64,000 bases of DNA. Source: Stropharia rugosoannulata (lineage: Eukaryota; Basidiomycota; Agaricomycetes; Agaricales; Strophariaceae). Under the pieces are notes generated by a model. That model had not been told where the DNA came from and searched no databases. It saw only the letters and a program-made list of their open reading frames with translations. A program made the position numbers and the translations under genes. Shown here in pieces: positions 39,713 through 61,338 of this stretch (position 1 is its first letter; each line of letters opens with the position of its first letter). The stretch is from positions 1,302,001-1,366,000 of the forward strand of contig JANCIK010000013.1 in the NCBI GenBank assembly GCA_028532985.1, in the 5' to 3' direction.

Positions 39713-40325
39713 AATGCTTGCATGTTGTTAGTAGCATACAACTGGAGAATGCCAAACGAACACACCTACAATAGCTCACGCGATAGCAAGTTCACCTATG
39801 CCCTTGGCTCGTACGGGTTACCGCAGGACTGCATTGTACGCAATATAGAGTAAATATTCCCCGGGCTGCAGATCTGCTGGGAATAAATTAGTCCCAATTT
39901 GCGAGATGATCTTGCCTGGTGCACGATCCTTTGCCTAAATGTCGCCCATCCCCGAGCAAGGAGCATCGCGTTGCGTCGCGATCTGGCATGGCGCCGGAAG
40001 AGTAGAGACACATGGAGAGGGCGAAGGGGACTCGGATCGGGTGCGGATGTGTACATAACGGGACACTAAGGCCATAGTTGCGGGTACGATGCAGTAGGGA
40101 GGGGTCCGGTAGGTCCCGGTCAGCGGTGGCGAGAGTGGGAGACTGGCTGCGCGACCTGACTGCGGATACGAGGAAAGGATCTGGCTTCGACGCTTGCCAG
40201 ATGGGAAGGTCCACTTTAATCCGGCGCACAGGGGGCGGAGTGCAGCAGAGTAGCTGTCGCCGCCGACCGGCTCGACTCGAACACCACTGTACATCCAAGA
40301 AGGGCGAGTGGAGTTCAGGGCATCT

Positions 40326-40660
40326 GGGCGCGTGAGAGTGAATGAACGGCGGGGGCAGTGGTATAGTGAACGAGCTGAGCCTTGAATCTTCCGCCTTAAA
40401 GACCGCGTCCAAAGGAGGTCACTGCGGGTGTACTGGGTGCGGACGGAAGTCAGTCTGTGGATCGTCGATGTCCTGTGATTGAACGAGGGCAAAGACGGCC
40501 TCAAAGCTAAGCAGATACAGCAAAACGCAAGCTGTCGACCGCGAGCCGGGGAGGAAGGGAATAGACGGAGACGTGCCAGAATGCTAGCGCTTGCCCTATG
40601 CCATCCGCGTGTGTTTGGATTGGCATCCGCGCCTATGCTTTGGTTGTTGACAGTAGTGTT
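40326..40660 (+). repeat. Dispersed 335-bp repeat, copy 1
   Basis: Nearly identical to 46917-47250 in the same orientation (roughly nine of ten bases by eye). Shared landmarks include GAGCTGAGCCTTGAATCTTC, GATGTCCTGTGATTGAACGA and GCGCCTATGCTTTGGTTGTT. No coding signature. Function unknown. Confidence 0.85.
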
Positions 40661-45374: not shown

Positions 45375-45639
45375 GAACGGTGTGTTTGTTTTGTATAATG
45401 TATTTTATATATGGACGTAGTACGGTTATTCGGTATACCAGTATGATTAATAATGTATATCTATTGAACGAGAACAGACGCCGTGCCGTGCGCATGTGCA
45501 TGAGGTGATCGGGTGCCAGGTTTCCTTTGTATTTTGAGATTGCCAGGGCAGTACACCTTTTTATTTTTGGAAACTGAAGCCATATCCCCGCACATGCACG
45601 CACATTCCCGGTGCGTGCAATGTGCGTGCATGTCCCACG

Positions 45640-46545
45640 GTGTGAAATGGCATCAGAATTACTGGCAAGCACATATATTTAAGCGCCCACAGTGTCGCTG
45701 ACTTGGTATGCTGACAGAGTTCCCTGGTCCCCTTTCCTGTCCTCCCATTCACGCTATATATCAGCCATAGTTGCCTGGGGCTGGCCAGGACAGGGCAGCC
45801 TGGGGGCCAAGAGGCTGTCAATGGCGAAACATATGGGCGTGTTGGTCGGGGTGCTAGGGTGCATGGGCGGCTGTGGGATGGGGTAGACGGATGCAGATGG
45901 TACCCTGAAGCGGGGTAGGTGGGACAGTCGGGTTAAAGAGGCGGGGGCGGGTCCGATAAGGGATGAACGATGCCGGGTGACCAGGATGCGCTGAGAACGG
46001 CGGGGTGACGCGAGAGCTCGCGCGATAGGGACTGCACGCAACACGACAACATGGACGAAGTATTCCAAAAGTATTCCGTGAGACAAGACGCACCCGACCA
46101 GGAGTCTTGAACAGGTCTGGACGCAGCCGTGATTATTATCTATACTTCACAAGGTTATGGTTAGTTCGGATCTCTTTGTTGCATTTGTTTCTCGTATGCC
46201 AATACTTTACAGGAATAACAAGCTGTCTGACAGCGCACCCTATGAGTCTCCATCCCCACCGGATTAGCCGCCTCAGTACGATGCGTCAAGCATAACCACG
46301 CGCCAAACCTCGTTCATTTCTCGAGGGTCGACACCGCACAGGAATGTCCAACTCTGCCCTCGCAGTGCTATATACCAAATGTTACCATAAATCTATATTT
46401 GCCAGTGCGGTCCAGCCGCGGCGCGTCCCATGGCTCTTATGTGCATGGTTTTGTACATGAACGATTAACGGAGCTCCAAATGCAACCAACACTCACCGTC
46501 CTTCAAGAACTTCAGCAGCTCAGCTAGTGGCATACACCCCTTGAA
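45640..46545 (+). repeat. Tandem segmental duplication, copy 1
   Basis: About 0.9 kb repeated in direct orientation at 47275-48382 (offset about 1.8 kb). Shared landmarks are TATTTAAGCGCCC, GAGAGCTCGCGCGATAGGGA, CCATCCCCACCGGATTAG and CTCACCGTCCTTCAAGAA. No intact gene. It contains the MCM-like relic at 46141-46230. Confidence 0.8.
46141..46230 (+). pseudogene. MCM exon-intron-exon relic, copy 1
   Basis: TACTTCACAAGGTTATG, then GTTAGT at the donor position, then an acceptor context CTTTACAG followed by GAATAACAAGCTGTCT. This mirrors the functional MCM4 junction at 32820-32908, which encodes LHEVM, an intron, then EQQTVS. Each half differs from it by about two bases. In the relic the second exon reads E-stop, so it is dead. 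Confidence 0.55.
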
Positions 46546-46916
46546 CCGTGAACGCGCCACGAGCGGAGTGCAGCAAGGTAGCCGTCGCCGCCGACCTGCG
46601 TATTGGATGGGGTTTCTCGAGTTTCGACGTCGCCCATGTAGGACTGACCCATGTCCACATCTAGATTCAACCGCCGTACCCACTGATATGACTGTCCTTC
46701 CGCTCGCCGAATCTGGTAGTACGACAGTCCATGAAGTTTGCCGGCTGCCCTTGCCCTCGGGCCTCAGCCACGGGCACTGACCCGTCGTGCGTCACTCGTA
46801 TGCAATGCATAGGCGTTGAGCAGAGCATGGCGTGCCCATGCGTCCCTTCGAAGGCGATCTGGTAAGTTCTTGACTCGACTCAAACACGTCTGTGTATGCA
46901 ATGGTCTAGGGCATTT

Positions 46917-47250
46917 GGGCGCGTGAGAGTGAATGAACGGCAGCATGAGTGGTATAGGGAACGAGCTGAGCCTTGAATCTTCCGGCTTAAAGACCGCGTC
47001 CAAAGGAGGTCACTGTGGGTGTACTGGGTGCGGACGGAAGTCGGTCTATGGGTCGTCGATGTCCTGTGATTGAACGAGGGCAAAGACGGCCTCAAAGCTA
47101 AGCAGATACAGCACAACGCAAGCTGTGGACCGCAAGCCGGGGAGGAAGGGAATAGACAGAGACGTTCCAGAGTGCTAGCGCTTGCCCTATGCCATTCGCG
47201 TGTGTTTGGAATGGCATCCGCGCCTATGCTTTGGTTGTTGACAGTCGTAC
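46917..47250 (+). repeat. Dispersed 335-bp repeat, copy 2
   Basis: Direct-orientation partner of 40326-40660. It sits between the two tandem-duplication copies. Similarity ends just after GCTTTGGTTGTTGACAGT. Confidence 0.85.
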
Positions 47251-47274
47251 TTAGCATTCCGTGCAGCGTTTATT

Positions 47275-48382
47275 TCCCACGATTTGAAATGGCATCAGAG
47301 TTACTGCCAAGCACAGATATTTAAGCGCCCAGTCGCTGACTTGGTATGCTGACCGGGTTCCTTGGAAAGTCATCTATGTGGAAACATCGAGGTGAGTCAT
47401 AGCCATCCTGTACGCAGTCATCCAGTTCAACCTCAACTTACACCTGAGTAGGACACGGGCTCGAACTCAGCCCCAAAACTCAACTCTTCCTTTAGCATAT
47501 CACCCCGCTCAAACTTCTTCACCATCCTGGCGCACTCACGCCAGCCATTATTTCGCCATTGACAGCCTTTTGGCCCCCAGGCTGCCCCGTTCTGGCCAGT
47601 CCCAGGCAGCTATGGCTGATATATAGTGTGAATGGGAGGACGTGGGAGGGGTGCGGACACGCCAATGGTGTGTATGCGTGTTGGTCGCGCGTGGGCGGCT
47701 GTGGGAGGGGGTGAACGGATGCAGACGGTGGCCTGAAGCGGGGCAGTCGGGACAGTCGGGCTAAAGAGGAGGGGAACGATGCCAGTCCCGAATAGTATGC
47801 GGGTGACCATGATGCGCTGAGAACGGCGGGGCGACGCGACGCGAGAGCTCGCGCGATAGGGACTGCACGCAACACGACGACATGGACTAAGTACTGCAAA
47901 AGTACTCCGTGAGACAAGATACACCCGACCAGGAGTCTTGAACAAGTCTGAACGCAGCCGTAATTATTATCTATACTTCACAAGGTTATGGTTGGTGATC
48001 TCTTTGTTGCATATGTTTTTCGTATACCAATGCCTTACAGGAATAACAAGCTGTCTTACAGCGCACCCTATGAGTCCCCATCCCCACCGGATTAGCAGCC
48101 TCAGTACGATGCATCAAGCATAACCACGCGCCAGGCCTCGTTCGTTTCTCGAGCGTCGACACCGCACAGGAATGTCCAGTGCCACCTTCTACCCTCGTGT
48201 TATATACCAAATGTTCTGCATTCCGCCCGCTGACAGTACCTCAAATCCATATCTGCCGGCCGCACTCGGTCCAGCCACTGGCTCCTGTGTCCATACGAAC
48301 GATTAACGGAACTCCAAATGCGACCGACACTCACCGTCCTTCAAGAATCTCAGCTGCTCAGCTAGTCGCATACACCCCTTGA
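47275..48382 (+). repeat. Tandem segmental duplication, copy 2 (with an inverted internal piece)
   Basis: Matches 45640-46545. At about 47555-47625 the sequence TGGCCCCCAGGCTGCCCC and its surroundings are the reverse complement of the corresponding part of copy 1 (about 45756-45825), so a small inversion separates the two copies. Confidence 0.75.
47972..48058 (+). pseudogene. MCM exon-intron-exon relic, copy 2
   Basis: Duplicate of the relic at 46141-46230 within the second tandem copy: TACTTCACAAGGTTATG, then GTTGGT, a short intron-like stretch, CCTTACAG and GAATAACAAGCTGTCT. It is disabled in the same way, so the decay or capture predates the duplication. Confidence 0.5.
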
Positions 48383-49572
48383 AGTTTCACTGGCCACCGT
48401 CGTCAGCGTCGCCACGAGGTTCGCTGGTACGGGGTGTCGCCACGCGCGGATGTCTGCATCGCACGAAAGATCGGAAGTACAGCATCGCGTTCGTCGAGTG
48501 AGTGCCAGTGCCGCATGTCTGAGTATGCAATGGTTAATATGAATATCTCCATGTAGGGAAACAGCCCCTCGCGATTCCATTTGAGCGCCGGATTAAAACA
48601 AACCTCTTACTTTGATGTGTCTCGCCCTGAGCTTCGTTGCATGCCTACGCTCACGCAAAGGGGCCTATTAGAACGGTTCTCATTACTTGGTTGTTGGCCA
48701 GTCTCGGGCAAGGATAGGCTAGACGGTGGAAAAAAGGTATGATACAATTTAATTGGTATGTTTTCGAGAGGCAGGGCAGTCCGCGGTCTTCATGTCTGCT
48801 GCCGCAAACTACGACACTGTTTGTGGCACTACCCCGTGCATTAGAACTGTGAACAGGAAAACAGGGCGCTCATTATATCTAAAGCTCTTCGCCGCAGATC
48901 CGAATCCAGGATGTACAGGTCATATGGTAACATTTCTATCAATACTAAACGGCTACTCATCACACTAACACGAATATATGTATTAAGAACCCGATAGGTG
49001 TTATATATAGCATATGAGCACTCGACTCTATGCCTCTGTCCGCAGGAGAGCGCACGGCTATACTATGGAGTGTGTCCCCGTCTACTAACTGAGACGTTTT
49101 CGTCCGGCCCATCGTCACCAGAAATGCAAGTACAGTACCTACTCGTTGCACCAAAGTAAAACGGCATCCAGTTGTGTCTGTCCACCATTCGATACGGGAT
49201 ATGAATTGAAGTAAGCAAAAATAAGCTGACGTGCGGTGAGAACGGCTTGATGGCACTGCATGGTGGTGCGCCCAAGTATAAATATACGGGGCGTCGAGAC
49301 GCTCGCCGCTACAGCTGATGCTACAATTTCTCGATATCTCTGCGACTGTACTCCATCCAACACTGCAGTAGGTATTGCCAAGTGAGGAGATACTCCCTAT
49401 GCCACAAGCCGCCGCAGAGTCTGTACCTATTTCTTTTGATGTATTGTTGGAAAGAGTGGCACGAAGCGCCTATTTTCGGACAATGAAATATGACGCAGGG
49501 CATCACTTGACGGACGCCGTGTAATCTTCCTATAAGTGTATTCAGATATCGGTTTCGGCTGCCCATCTCGCA
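48383..49572. other. Interval without a supported gene
   Basis: 1.2 kb. The minus-strand frames around 49139-49566 (for example VQSQRYREIVASAVAASVST) could be a small relic with introns, but they cannot be joined convincingly. No domain was recognised. Confidence 0.35.
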
Positions 49573-51861
49573 ATGCTCCCATTACTCCCCCTGCTGCCAA
49601 CCTCATCCGTCAACGCAGTTTCTGCCGCCAACATCTCCTTTGAAATTCTTCGAGCAGTTTATGATACTGCACCGTCTGCATTCCAGGATGGAATGAATGA
49701 TGATCTGCTTGAAAGCCTGCGCTCTTTTCAAACCGCCATCAGACTCGCCGACCTTGTTGTTATAAAGAAATGGTTGAATGACCAACAACGACAGGTCTTG
49801 GAGGCAGCCATTCAAGCGTCCCTTACAACTCTTAGTAAGTTTTGTAACCACAAAATTGCTAACAAAATTACAATTGACAACGGGAAAACAGGTCCCTACG
49901 AAAATGTCAACCTTTGGGGACAATTCACTTTACAAGAGTGGGAGGTCTTTGCCAATAAAGTCTGTGAACATGCAGATACAATAAAATCCTATACATTTAC
50001 ACCTGAAATGTAAGAGACATGTACATTTTCCTCAAGCAGCAGTTTCTTCAAACAAAATTATTGATGCATCTTACTATTAGAAATATCAAAAATTCATATG
50101 TTATGGGGAAATTTTCTAGTGATGAATATACACAACTTTTGCTTCTTCGGAAACAAAAACAATCATATTCAAAAGAAACAACAAAATATGAGACCATTGA
50201 TACAAGTGAGTACTCCAATAAGAGTCAGGGATTTTAGGAGTTACTAATATATTTTATTTTTGTGGGAAGCACAACGTGTACTAATTTATCAGAGTGATCA
50301 CTACAAGGATGGATGGAAATTCTCATTAATAGTGACAAAAAAGGTAAGAAGGCTTTCACAGTTGTGCTCTGAGTTTTGACACAACCTTGACTATATTTCC
50401 ACAGGAAGTAGGTGCAATGTAACATAGTATGCTACATGAAGTTACTAACTCTATACATTTTGGGCATTTTGTCTAGGCAGTAAGTATATTTCAATGGATG
50501 CAGCCAATATACAAAACATTCAATTTATTTTTAGGATGTATGTAAGCTTTTTCAAACATGATTGATTTTTATTCATTGCCTGGACTTTGCTTGTAGGAGG
50601 TAAATGATATCTTGCATCTTTATGATATGTATCAAGTATTGAATGTTTACTTCTAGCTTGTATGTCTACATTACTTTCTATTAAGAATCAGTCTAATGTG
50701 GTGTTATATATTACTACCTAGGATGTATGTATCAAACCATTGATTTCAGAAGTACTTATTACTGACTACATGACTCTGTAGAAGGTATGTGACCTGCTTT
50801 ATAGCAAATTATACTCTTATTTACAGTATATGTAATTTCTGATATTAGTTGGTATGTGGTCATGAATTTATATATTCCAAGCTAATGTTGCTATTTAGTT
50901 TGTATGTGCCATTTTCAATGGAAGATATGCCAAATTAACAAACATTTAAATGACTTGCATCCAAACTTAGATTGTGAGTTATTACTATTATATCTTACTT
51001 AGATTGAATCAAATTATTTATGCTTTTAGGAAGCAAGTACCTGTTTAACTAATTTCCATGGAGATTCTGACAAGTATTTTCTTCCACTAAAATACAGGAT
51101 GTAAGCAATACAAAGTTTTGGCATCTATTTATTGGATACTAATTTTTGGCAATAATTTGAAGGAGGTATGTGAAAGGGTCTGATATTAATTCTGGCACAT
51201 TTTAAATTGAGTCATTAATCTGCTCTACCCCAGTTTGTAAAATATTCTACATAACCATTTGTCCTTTTCTTACCATTTTACCACTACTTTACAGAAGGTA
51301 TGTGTGCCAAGAACAAGCTATATAATCTTGATTATAACATTACCTTGACTAATAATATTCAGATGGTAAGAAGGATTTTTTTAGCTATATTCTCTGATCT
51401 AACTGCTTTATGTCTAGGTGGTAAGATATGTAATTCATTCAATCAAAAAATGTTCTATTAACAACATTTCCTATATTTCCATTATTTCTAGCATGTGAGT
51501 ATTCTGTTTATTTGAGATACTGTCAACTAATTGCATCTCTAGCATAGAGTATGTCTTAGTCCACTTCTATTGATTATGATAAATACTATATTTATCCAAT
51601 TAATATTTTCATTCTTAGCGTGTATGTGATTTATTCCAATATGTCTAGTCCAACTGTGAATACGATTTATATATTTACAGCTTGTAAGTATTTTTATGTT
51701 CTTCTGGTCATGCTGTACATAATCTGACATAACATTGGTTGCATAGAGAGAACAGAAAATAAGGGATTTGGAATTAGCTATGTGTGTTATCAATTACTTA
51801 TTCAACAATGCTGATAATGTTGCATATATGTAGGGGAGAAGGATATCTGAAGGGTAAATAA
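49573..51861 (+). CDS. Unknown 235-aa protein encoded by 27 exons, 20 of them single codons
   Basis: The start ATG 49573 opens MLPLLPLLPTSSVNAV. Ordinary exons are 49573-49834, 49892-50009, 50081-50205 and 50270-50343, together 579 nt or exactly 193 codons. They read helical, soluble protein: ISFEILRAVYDTAPSAFQDG, WLNDQQRQVLEAAIQA, NLWGQFTLQEWEVFANKV, SSDEYTQLLLLRKQ, QRVLIYQSDHYKDGWKFSLI. From 50405 to 51683 the frame runs through 21 microexons (22 codons; see the array entry). It then enters exon 51747-51781 (REQKIRDLELA) and exon 51834-51861 (MGEGYLKGK, TAA at 51859-51861). Total coding length is 708 nt without an internal stop. Introns are 47-71 nt, GT-AG except one GC-AG, several with TACTAAC-like branch sites. 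The family was not recognised. Base composition is much more AT-rich than the neighbouring genes. The start codon could lie further upstream. Confidence 0.6.
50405..51683 (+). other. Array of 21 consecutive microexons (twenty of 3 nt, one of 6 nt)
   Basis: Each unit is an acceptor AG, one codon, then a donor. First bases and codons: 50405 GAA, 50477 GCA, 50535 GAT, 50597 GAG, 50657 CTT, 50722 GAT, 50782 AAG, 50849 TTG, 50899 TTT, 50971 ATT, 51030 GAA, 51098 GAT, 51163 GAG, 51234 TTT, 51295 AAG, 51363 ATG, 51418 GTG, 51492 CAT, 51543 CATAGA, 51619 CGT, 51681 CTT. Donors are mostly GTATGT, GTAAGT, GTAAGA or GTGAGT; the donor at 51033 is GCAAGT, a consensus GC donor. Acceptors are mainly TAG or CAG, once AAG. 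All introns are phase 0. The encoded peptide is acidic then basic and helix-like, and continues naturally from VTKK into REQKIRDLELA. Confidence 0.6.
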
Positions 51862-59387: not shown

Positions 59388-59610
59388 TTATATGTAAACA
59401 TCTTTGAATGATACAAGGCCCATCTGGTGGATCCTAGGATGCCTTGAGCTGCCCTGGATTGCCTTGGGAAAGTTGTACCTGGTTGTTTGCAGAGGGACCT
59501 TGCCCTGAGTGCACCTAAGGGCCCTGGCTGCTTTGCATGCCCTGGCTGCCTTAGGATCTCTAAGGCAGTGCCAGGGAGATACAAAGCCCCTGGGGACAAA
59601 AGTCATTTTC

Positions 59611-61338
59611 CTGATGAAGCTGGTGTAATACATCAGGTGTTAATGACTGGTGAATGTCGGTCAGAGGAAAGTCTTCCCAAAAAGGCTTGAATACACTGCC
59701 TGCAACATTATGGGACATGCAATATTTATGAAACTGGTTCTGGTTGTCTCCCGAATAAAGTTTGGCCTCTTCAATGGTGGATTTTGTCCATCGCTGAGTT
59801 CTGAGCTCCGATAGTGCTTCATCTCCAAGATTATTGGCCTTTGCTTTGCATTTGACACAAGTCCCATATTTCGTACAAGAAACAAGACATTGTTCAGGAT
59901 AGTCGGCAACATAGCAAGTAAGGATAGGAAAAACAAGACGAGTAGCACCATCAGAGCTTGCCATTTCTATGCCCTCATTTCCAGCTTTAATGAGAGGTTC
60001 TAAAACGATTTTCATCGATTCATGGAAAAGCCTTTGAACTCTAGATCGGTGTTCATTTTCACTCATTTGTGATCGGTTGATTTTGTCAACTGAAAGGTAG
60101 GCTATAAGGATGGTAGCATGGGAAGAGGGCTTTCTTCTTGTTGCTTTAGGGATGTTTCCAATCGTAAGATAAACAGGATAGGCTGATTTTCCCCCTGAAA
60201 ACTGGGTTAACTGGGTTTTGTCTGTAGCAATTATGACAGGAGCTAAAGTAGCTCCAACTGGAAGTCGGCTCTAAAGTGAAGTAAATACAACTTGCTATAT
60301 CAAGAATTGCAATTTGAATATAACATACCTGAAGAACACTCCACCATTGACCTGTCCACATTTCATTGAATATTCGCCCATCTTTACGAGGACTAGTATA
60401 CACCTTCTTAGGCTTAAATTTCATCATAGGCGACAGATGGGGGTCCTTCCAAAGAGACTCGATGGCTTGTATTGGATTACGATGCCGAATAGTATATACT
60501 TCATTAGGTTTATCGGCAAATCTTAGTTTGCGAGTCTTCCATTCACCTGCTTTCTCGGGCATAGAGTCAAGTTTCTTGTGCAAACCCCGAATATTATGGT
60601 ATGAGAGGCCAAGCTTTTCGACAACCTTGATAGTTTGAGTTAGTAAATACAATTGTATTAGTAGTATTGAACTTACCCCAGGAATTTTAAGTAATCGGTC
60701 AAATGCATTATGGCCTGGCCCATCGTTAACTGCCCATTGAGCTATTTTCCAATCTAGCTCTGAATGAAAGGGATGAAACTTGGGATCCACTCCCTCTTGA
60801 AGCATATGAACATCACCATCGCCATCCAAAGTGTGGATATGTGGGTTACTGGTTGCTTGATATCGAAGAATTCTACCAGCAGTAGGATGCTCTTCTTCAA
60901 TCCTTTCATCGTCATCATCATCATCTAGTAATCGCTTCATTGACAGCACTCTACTGCGATAAGCAGCAGTTTGAGGACCTGGGCCTGCCTCACCCTCCAA
61001 GTAGTCGTCAGGACCTGGAATAAGAGCAAACTCATCTACAATATTGTCGAATTCCTCATGAAAAAGTCCTCAAGATCTTCGCCATCTAATTCTTCGGGTG
61101 TTTGGTTACTAGCTTGCTGTCCAGTATTCAGGGCACTGCTAGCAATGTTGTCGTTGGATCCAAGGTCGTACTGTATTGGGGCATTTTCTTGTATCTCGTA
61201 GGTGTTTTCAGCATTCAAATCCTCTAGTTTTTCCTCCATATACCAGGAGCAAGATCGTGATGAGGTTAAATGGGCATTTACCCCACCCCAGGTTTTGAAA
61301 AATCTTTCGCATCCAGCAGGGCATTCAAAGTTGGGCAT
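59611..61338 (-). pseudogene. Plavaka-type transposase, N-terminal half, frameshifted
   Basis: Starts at ATG 61338 with a C2H2-like finger (MPNFECPAGCERFFKTWGGV...LTSSRSCSWY). It continues through PGPDDYLEGEAGPGPQTAA, ATSNPHIHTLDGDGDVHM, HPFHSELDWKIAQWAVNDGP, KAIESLWKDP-like QAIESLWKDPHLSPMMKFKP, IFNEMWTGQWWSVLQ, TLAPVIIATDKTQLTQFSGG, KSAYPVYLTIGNIPKATRRK and DIHQSLTPDVLHQLHQ. These are ordered Plavaka motifs. A run of five T (minus strand; plus 61061-61065) breaks the frame between EDLEDFF and HEEFDNIVDEFALIPG; six T would restore it. Together with the insertion at 59610 the gene is dead. Confidence 0.82.

Follow-up and report, generated by a model that had tools for sequence, protein, structure and literature searches.

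A small putative gene is located at positions 49573 to 51861 on the + strand of a 64,000-nucleotide (nt) window of contig JANCIK010000013.1 from Stropharia rugosoannulata, the window being the whole stretch of DNA that was analyzed. The gene model was rebuilt letter by letter. Exon 1 (49573..49834, 262 nt) carries the ATG start and is open in all four copies of the gene described below. It is followed by exon 2 (49892..50009, 118 nt), exon 3 (50081..50205, 125 nt), and exon 4 (50270..50343, 74 nt), which has phase 0 at its 3' end. These four exons total 579 nt, or 193 codons. Next comes an array of 22 introns and 21 microexons (50344..51746, 1403 nt), which was delimited from the gene model and a four-copy alignment. 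The gene ends with exon 26 (51747..51781, 35 nt) and exon 27 (51834..51861, 28 nt), which includes the stop codon TAA. All of these features are on the + strand. Twenty of the consecutive predicted microexons are 3 nt long and one is 6 nt long (51543..51548).

The array introns are all in phase 0 and are 47-71 nt in length. The gene's other four introns measure 57, 71, 64, and 52 nt, and by that standard the array introns are ordinary in size. Once spliced, the predicted frame of 708 nt is open throughout and encodes 235 amino acids (aa) plus a stop. An earlier note on this sequence had described 21 consecutive microexons, 20 of them one codon long, together with phase-0 introns of 47-71 nt, 193 codons before the array, and an uninterrupted 235-aa frame. 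The rebuilt model bears this description out. The array supplies residues 194-215 of the 235, which is the C-terminal part of the protein. At the other end of the gene, intron 1 (49835..49891, 57 nt) has no in-frame stop, and its retention would preserve the frame; in one of the other copies (P1) a TGA lies inside it.

The gene belongs to a family of four copies; neither this family nor the hypervariability of its array codons was part of the earlier note, which had the one sequence to work from. A protein search of the organism's own genome (48 Mb, 20 contigs) identified exons of three further copies, all on the same contig. These are P1 near 1,411,950 (minus strand), P2 near 1,614,513, and P3 near 1,626,022; the gene at 49573-51861 is referred to as the window copy. 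A DNA search found the same four places, with 89-90% identity over about 2.8 kb. The complete array is present in all four copies, and every exon length is kept: 3 nt in twenty exons and 6 nt in the remaining one. When the 26 introns are removed, the frames are open at 235, 239, 237, and 239 aa in the window copy, P1, P2, and P3, the last figure counting exon 3 from an acceptor that has been lost in P3 (AG to AA). The next AG in P3 lies 24 nt downstream, is in frame, and gives an open frame of 231 aa.

The upstream sequence at window positions 45600-49400 belongs to the duplicated unit, which extends for some kb ahead of the gene, and pieces of this sequence recur beside all three other copies. 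One 341-bp piece of it also matches window positions 40317-40657. Separate from the four copies, a stretch of 60 nt at window positions 36203-36262 matches the gene's 3' flank at 90%.

The codons of the microexons were read from the four-copy alignment and are given here on the + strand in the order window/P1/P2/P3, after the residue encoded in the window copy. Four microexons are invariant: microexon 1 (GAA, E, 50405..50407), microexon 5 (CTT, L, 50657..50659), microexon 8 (TTG, L, 50849..50851), and microexon 15 (AAG, K, 51295..51297). Those that vary in the first half are microexons 2 (A, GCA/TGG/GCA/TGG, 50477..50479), 3 (D, GAT/AGA/AGA/GAA, 50535..50537), 4 (E, GAG/AAG/AAG/GAG, 50597..50599), 6 (D, GAT/AAT/GTG/TTG, 50722..50724), 7 (K, AAG/GAT/GAG/GAG, 50782..50784), 9 (F, TTT/GAA/TTT/TTT, 50899..50901), and 10 (I, ATT/GAG/AAT/AAT, 50971..50973). 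Farther along, the variable ones are microexons 11 (E, GAA/GAT/GAT/GAT, 51030..51032, followed by a GC donor), 12 (D, GAT/GAT/AAT/AAT, 51098..51100), 13 (E, GAG/TGG/GGG/GGG, 51163..51165), 14 (F, TTT/CGT/GAT/GAT, 51234..51236), 16 (M, ATG/AAA/AAA/GGG, 51363..51365), 17 (V, GTG/ATA/TGG/CAT, 51418..51420), 18 (H, CAT/GAA/GAT/GAT, 51492..51494), 20 (R, CGT/TAT/CAT/TAT, 51619..51621), and 21 (L, CTT/TAT/GAA/GAA, 51681..51683). Microexon 19 is the one of six nucleotides (CATAGA, HR, 51543..51548); its CAT is invariant and its second codon reads AGA/AAA/TAT/AAA. The array segments of the window copy, P1, P2, and P3 are EADELDKLFIEDEFKMVHHRRL, EWRKLNDLEEDDWRKKIEHKYY, EARKLVELFNDNGDKKWDHYHE, and EWEELLELFNDNGDKGHDHKYE.

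The pattern is not a product of chance. A strict acceptor-NNN-donor motif has 23 matches on the + strand of the window, and 18 of these are inside the 1.4-kb array. Other spacings of 0-15 nt give at most two matches each within the array on the + strand and at most one on the - strand. It is this concentration that argues against chance. Outside the array, no chain of four or more tiny exons was found on either strand of the window. Repetition was also considered. The array as a tandem repeat was rejected, as Tandem Repeats Finder (TRF) returned no match and the intron cores are unrelated to one another; the repeat search found short, weak repeats only, up to 29 nt. The mutual similarity of the array introns over 231 pairs gave a mean score of 13.8 versus 13.5 for shuffled sequences, and the best score of 27 falls among null maxima of 21-29. 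Mass insertion of introner elements was rejected too, since the introns are no more alike than shuffles and since, among the best candidates scored in the genome, the array region matched the four genes themselves and otherwise a single 60-nt piece of their 3' flank.

Comparison of the four copies indicates that the triplets vary as codons do. Over the six pairs of copies, the differences per site were 0.376 in the microexons versus 0.068 in the array introns and 0.058 in the other introns; exons 1-4 gave 0.080, 0.055, 0.128, and 0.176. Microexon divergence exceeded that of the array introns in all six pairs and was about five times greater overall. Variable columns numbered 40 of 66 in the microexons versus 168 of 1337 in the introns (Fisher p = 1.3e-18). 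When 22 intron triplets were drawn at random 20,000 times, the mean was 8.6 variable columns and the maximum was 23, so that 40 was never reached. Codons that vary at all three bases make up 9 of the 22, versus 7 of 1292 overlapping intron triplets.

The limits of this variation are sharp. In the 20 three-base exons, 15, 11, and 11 of 20 columns are variable at exon positions 1, 2, and 3. At the flanking AG and GT positions none of the 20 is variable, and other positions have between 0 and 5. All 84 acceptors are AG, and the donors are GT in 80 of 84 and GC in the other four. None of the 88 splice dinucleotide columns is variable, although the intron rate would predict about 12 (chance about 2e-6). 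Nine of the 22 introns differ in length among the copies, and no microexon column contains a gap. At a distance suited to a branch point, 21 of 22 introns have a branch-point-like motif, YTNAY, that all four copies share (the mean in column shuffles is 14.6, and 0 of 200 reach 21), and 7 of 22 share the stricter CTRAY (shuffles have a mean of 2.1 and a maximum of 6). These sharp limits are not accounted for by any untranslated reading of the triplets, which are very probably coding exons. Recursive splice sites, or zero-length exons, do not describe the array, as exactly three bases (once six) remain per copy and vary as codons.

The same observations bear on a rival reading, in which the array is decayed sequence or a single long intron without coding function and the exon pattern is accidental. 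The exons are unusually small and are read from the gene sequence, three donors are off consensus, and P3 has lost its exon-3 acceptor, all of which could fit such a region. However, an intron of 1403 nt would be far above the other introns of the gene, which are 52-71 nt, and the frame has been kept in four copies along with the splice sites. One long intron was rejected on the concentration of the motif, the variability that ends exactly at the exon limits, and the kept splice sites. An accidental pattern is thus extremely unlikely.

The variation also appears to be directed at the protein. Seventeen of the 22 codons are variable, and in all 17 the amino acid is changed; there is no codon with synonymous changes only. 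No stop codon is found among the 88 array codons of the four copies. The ratio of nonsynonymous to synonymous substitution rates (dN/dS) is 0.44 for exons 1 and 2 together, which are constrained, and 3.2 for exon 3. From dN/dS and the codon map, exon 3 contains a block of hypervariable codons, at about residues 131-142, which no intron interrupts and which changes in the same style as the array. Since this block is hypervariable without microexons, the cause acts on the protein and not on splice-flanked triplets. A dedicated mutator, with hypermutation or replacement targeted to codons in place of ordinary mutation and selection, might be suggested by the nine codons that vary at three bases between introns of about 7% divergence. 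A mutator is very unlikely, however, given the amino acid changes in every variable codon, the lack of stops, the five codons that stay constant on one helix face, and the intron-free block in exon 3 that varies likewise.

Exchange among the four copies is suggested by the distribution of sites at which two copies differ from the other two. There are 72 such sites, and they join the window copy with P1 at 32, with P2 at 20, and with P3 at 20. A runs test over all 72 gave 26 runs versus 47.7 expected, and none of 10,000 shuffles was as low. These sites could also be read as the mark of old allelic lineages, in which ancient codon polymorphisms have been held by balancing selection and the introns have been homogenized by recombination. 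Each of the three groupings of the copies is backed by some sites, and the triplet differences are far above the intron divergence, as such lineages would predict. The codons are only about 60 nt apart, however, and of the eight microexons holding two-against-two sites, seven agree with at least one neighboring intron site. Exchange would therefore carry codons along with introns. The data also come from one genome only. Old lineages are considered improbable, and gene conversion or exchange among the copies is the process that the mosaic suggests.

The makeup of the array segment fits a charged helix of which one face is constant. Residues 1, 5, 8, 15, and 19 of the 22 are constant across the copies and the other 17 vary. 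The constant residues all fall into a single heptad a/d register (p = 0.003, calculated after the pattern had been seen). The residues S, T, P, Q, and C account for 53 of the 193 encoded by exons 1-4 and for none of the 53 distinct codon states in the array, and no state has C as its third base. The earlier note had described the peptide as a plausible acidic-to-basic helix. The segment does look helix-like; the charge trend is present in the window copy only, as most residues vary and P2 and P3 end in E.

The protein appears to be an orphan. In Pfam, the four proteins matched only DUF7709, below the cut-off (E 0.13 for the window copy and 0.056 for the best of the four), and none had a match to NACHT, NB-ARC, or ANK. 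Membership in the NOD-like receptors (NLR) was rejected, as Pfam showed no nucleotide-binding domain in the four proteins. At least 51 NACHT matches are present elsewhere in the genome, with none among those listed on the contig of the array. Sequences in the PDB gave no match (best profile E 0.062). In a protein collection, nothing was found at E <= 1 among 356, 18, and the best 7998 candidates, those sharing the most words; in the search with 18 candidates, the query was exon 1, intron 1, and exon 2 read straight through. Gene prediction that overlooks 3-nt exons may be one reason that no relatives were found.

There are several known systems with which this family can be compared. Schistosome micro-exon genes also have tiny exons in series, with lengths divisible by three and greater than those seen here, and their variation is said to come from skipping. 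Unlike in those genes, the codons themselves differ among the Stropharia copies. In fungi, the nank (NACHT-ANK) genes of Tuber melanosporum were reportedly first described by Iotti et al. in 2012 (Fungal Biol 116:261). Passages in later papers credit this family with 3-bp mini-exons numbering in the dozens, or with codon-sized microexons numbering in the tens, state that their alternative splicing diversifies the receptor, and assign the mini-exons a part in varying a C-terminal recognition region (PMC9815663, PMC10197012, PMC4986451, PMC3689799). The earlier note had known of no gene with introns codon by codon, a statement that these passages overturn, and codon-sized microexons in fungi can be regarded as already known from truffle nank. 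As described there, nank and the present family share consecutive 3-bp exons, an expanded family, and microexons in the C-terminal part. They differ in that the four-copy family has no NACHT or ANK match, encodes a small orphan protein, and is in a basidiomycete. Hypervariability of codons against conserved introns has been measured in the Stropharia family.

Other likenesses are more distant. The NWD incompatibility receptors of Podospora anserina, in the passages of the paper that concern them, also have a few diversifying positions per unit in a conserved scaffold and exchange units among members; whole WD repeats are exchanged there, whereas here there are intron-separated single codons and no NLR domain (PMC4986451). 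Aphid bicycle genes, as one paper describes them, likewise form a family that evolves fast and are divided into a great number of small exons sharing a single phase; they differ in that nearly all of their internal exons are phase 2, in contrast to phase 0 and one codon here (PMC9168663). Plant microexons of 1-15 nt demonstrate that exons down to 1 nt can be spliced; the passages compared present most of them as conserved microexons that stand alone or next to one another and do not call them hypervariable, whereas here there is a hypervariable run of 21 (PMC8831610). Among the best-ranked hits of searches in open-licence PMC papers, none reported arrays of codon-sized exons from a basidiomycete or single-codon exons that are hypervariable, which does not show that no such report exists.

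The truffle precedent, as reported in the citing papers, raises the possibility that combinatorial alternative splicing is the main device here as well. The codons would then be optional cassettes, and each gene could yield many variants of the helix. All 21 microexons are phase-0 multiples of three, so any subset could be skipped without loss of frame, and joining exon 4 directly to exon 26 would keep the frame as well. The invariant splice dinucleotides indicate, however, that weak optional sites are not the rule. Skipping would also break the heptad register of the constant residues, and the codon changes between copies imply that the encoded sequence itself matters. As the main device, alternative splicing is considered rather unlikely.

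On balance, we lean toward the reading that the triplets are single-codon exons that jointly encode the fast-evolving face of a recognition helix under diversification. Each intron of about 60 nt would be recognized and removed as a unit by intron definition. Intron definition sets no lower limit on exon length, so two introns could come to lie a single codon apart. Because all junctions are in phase 0, the 22 codons would join in frame to exon 4 and the last two exons; this frame is seen in the sequence and the splicing is predicted. The segment is probably an amphipathic helix with the five constant residues on one heptad face. Diversifying selection would favor amino acid changes at the exposed residues, as the contrast with the introns suggests, and gene conversion may move blocks of introns together with their codons. 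Hypervariable fungal receptors offer an analogy here, and they point to a non-self or partner protein as the most likely ligand. Codon skipping in any in-frame combination is possible and would add variants.

A number of points weigh against this reading. The whole array is a prediction from genome sequence. In the window copy, the donors GTAAAT (50600), GTAAAA (51237), and GTAGGT (50408) are off consensus, and there is a GC donor at 51033, which is preserved in all four copies as a GC-AG intron with GCAAGT. One of the 22 array introns lacks a conserved YTNAY. The loss of the P3 acceptor could be early decay of that copy. The formal dN/dS of the microexons, 2.7, is soft, as dS comes from about 11 synonymous sites per pair and from path averaging; the selection argument is therefore carried by the comparison with introns. 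The sample for the selection test is four copies from one genome, which is few, and recombination inflates such tests. Part of the mosaic signal comes from neighboring bases that change together, and the signal was weaker in the array introns alone (12 runs versus 17.5 expected, 138 of 10,000 shuffles), at sites at least 5 nt apart without the microexons (25 versus 29.7, 817 of 10,000), and at sites thinned in this way within the array (12 versus 16.0, 510 of 10,000). That S, T, P, Q, and C do not occur in the array could also come from base constraints on 3-nt exons. A single-sequence structure model of the N-terminal read-through stretch was poor (predicted local distance difference test, pLDDT, 45) and was unused. 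No homologue outside the genome was found in the databases searched, and the function is proposed by analogy.

Two further features were noted away from the gene. A Plavaka transposase match lies at window positions 59560-61069 on the minus strand, where a pair of open frames that overlap each other hit Pfam PF18759 with E 4e-82 and 3e-17. In the genome there are 22 STE3 pheromone-receptor matches in seven places. Five of them are clustered at about 604,800-639,200 on contig C10, which is not the contig of the array, and this cluster is presumably the B mating-type locus. Such a number of places points to an agaricomycete, as ascomycetes carry one STE3. A search of the assembly for 5.8S rRNA gave no match.

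What appears to be new in Stropharia rugosoannulata is a four-copy, non-NLR basidiomycete family in which most one-codon exons are hypervariable and the introns are not. The comparison of copies indicates that 3-nt units between splice sites diversify like codons, and that the intervening introns have diverged no differently from the rest of the gene's introns. This is a second case of codon-sized microexons, in a basidiomycete and in a protein unrelated to the truffle receptors. It suggests that a variable segment of 22 residues can escape routine annotation. It also makes two questions approachable in a small, cloneable gene: how the spliceosome handles 21 tiny exons, and whether intron-separated codons act as a diversifier of a recognition surface. 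Tentatively, and as something possible that we would not yet call probable, one codon per exon may be an independently evolved basidiomycete device for diversity, in which recombination in introns and optional splicing reassort a binding surface residue by residue with the frame kept. If this is true, the family and the truffle receptors would make up a general class of codon-cassette genes in fungi, one that has gone unseen as gene finders miss 3-nt exons.

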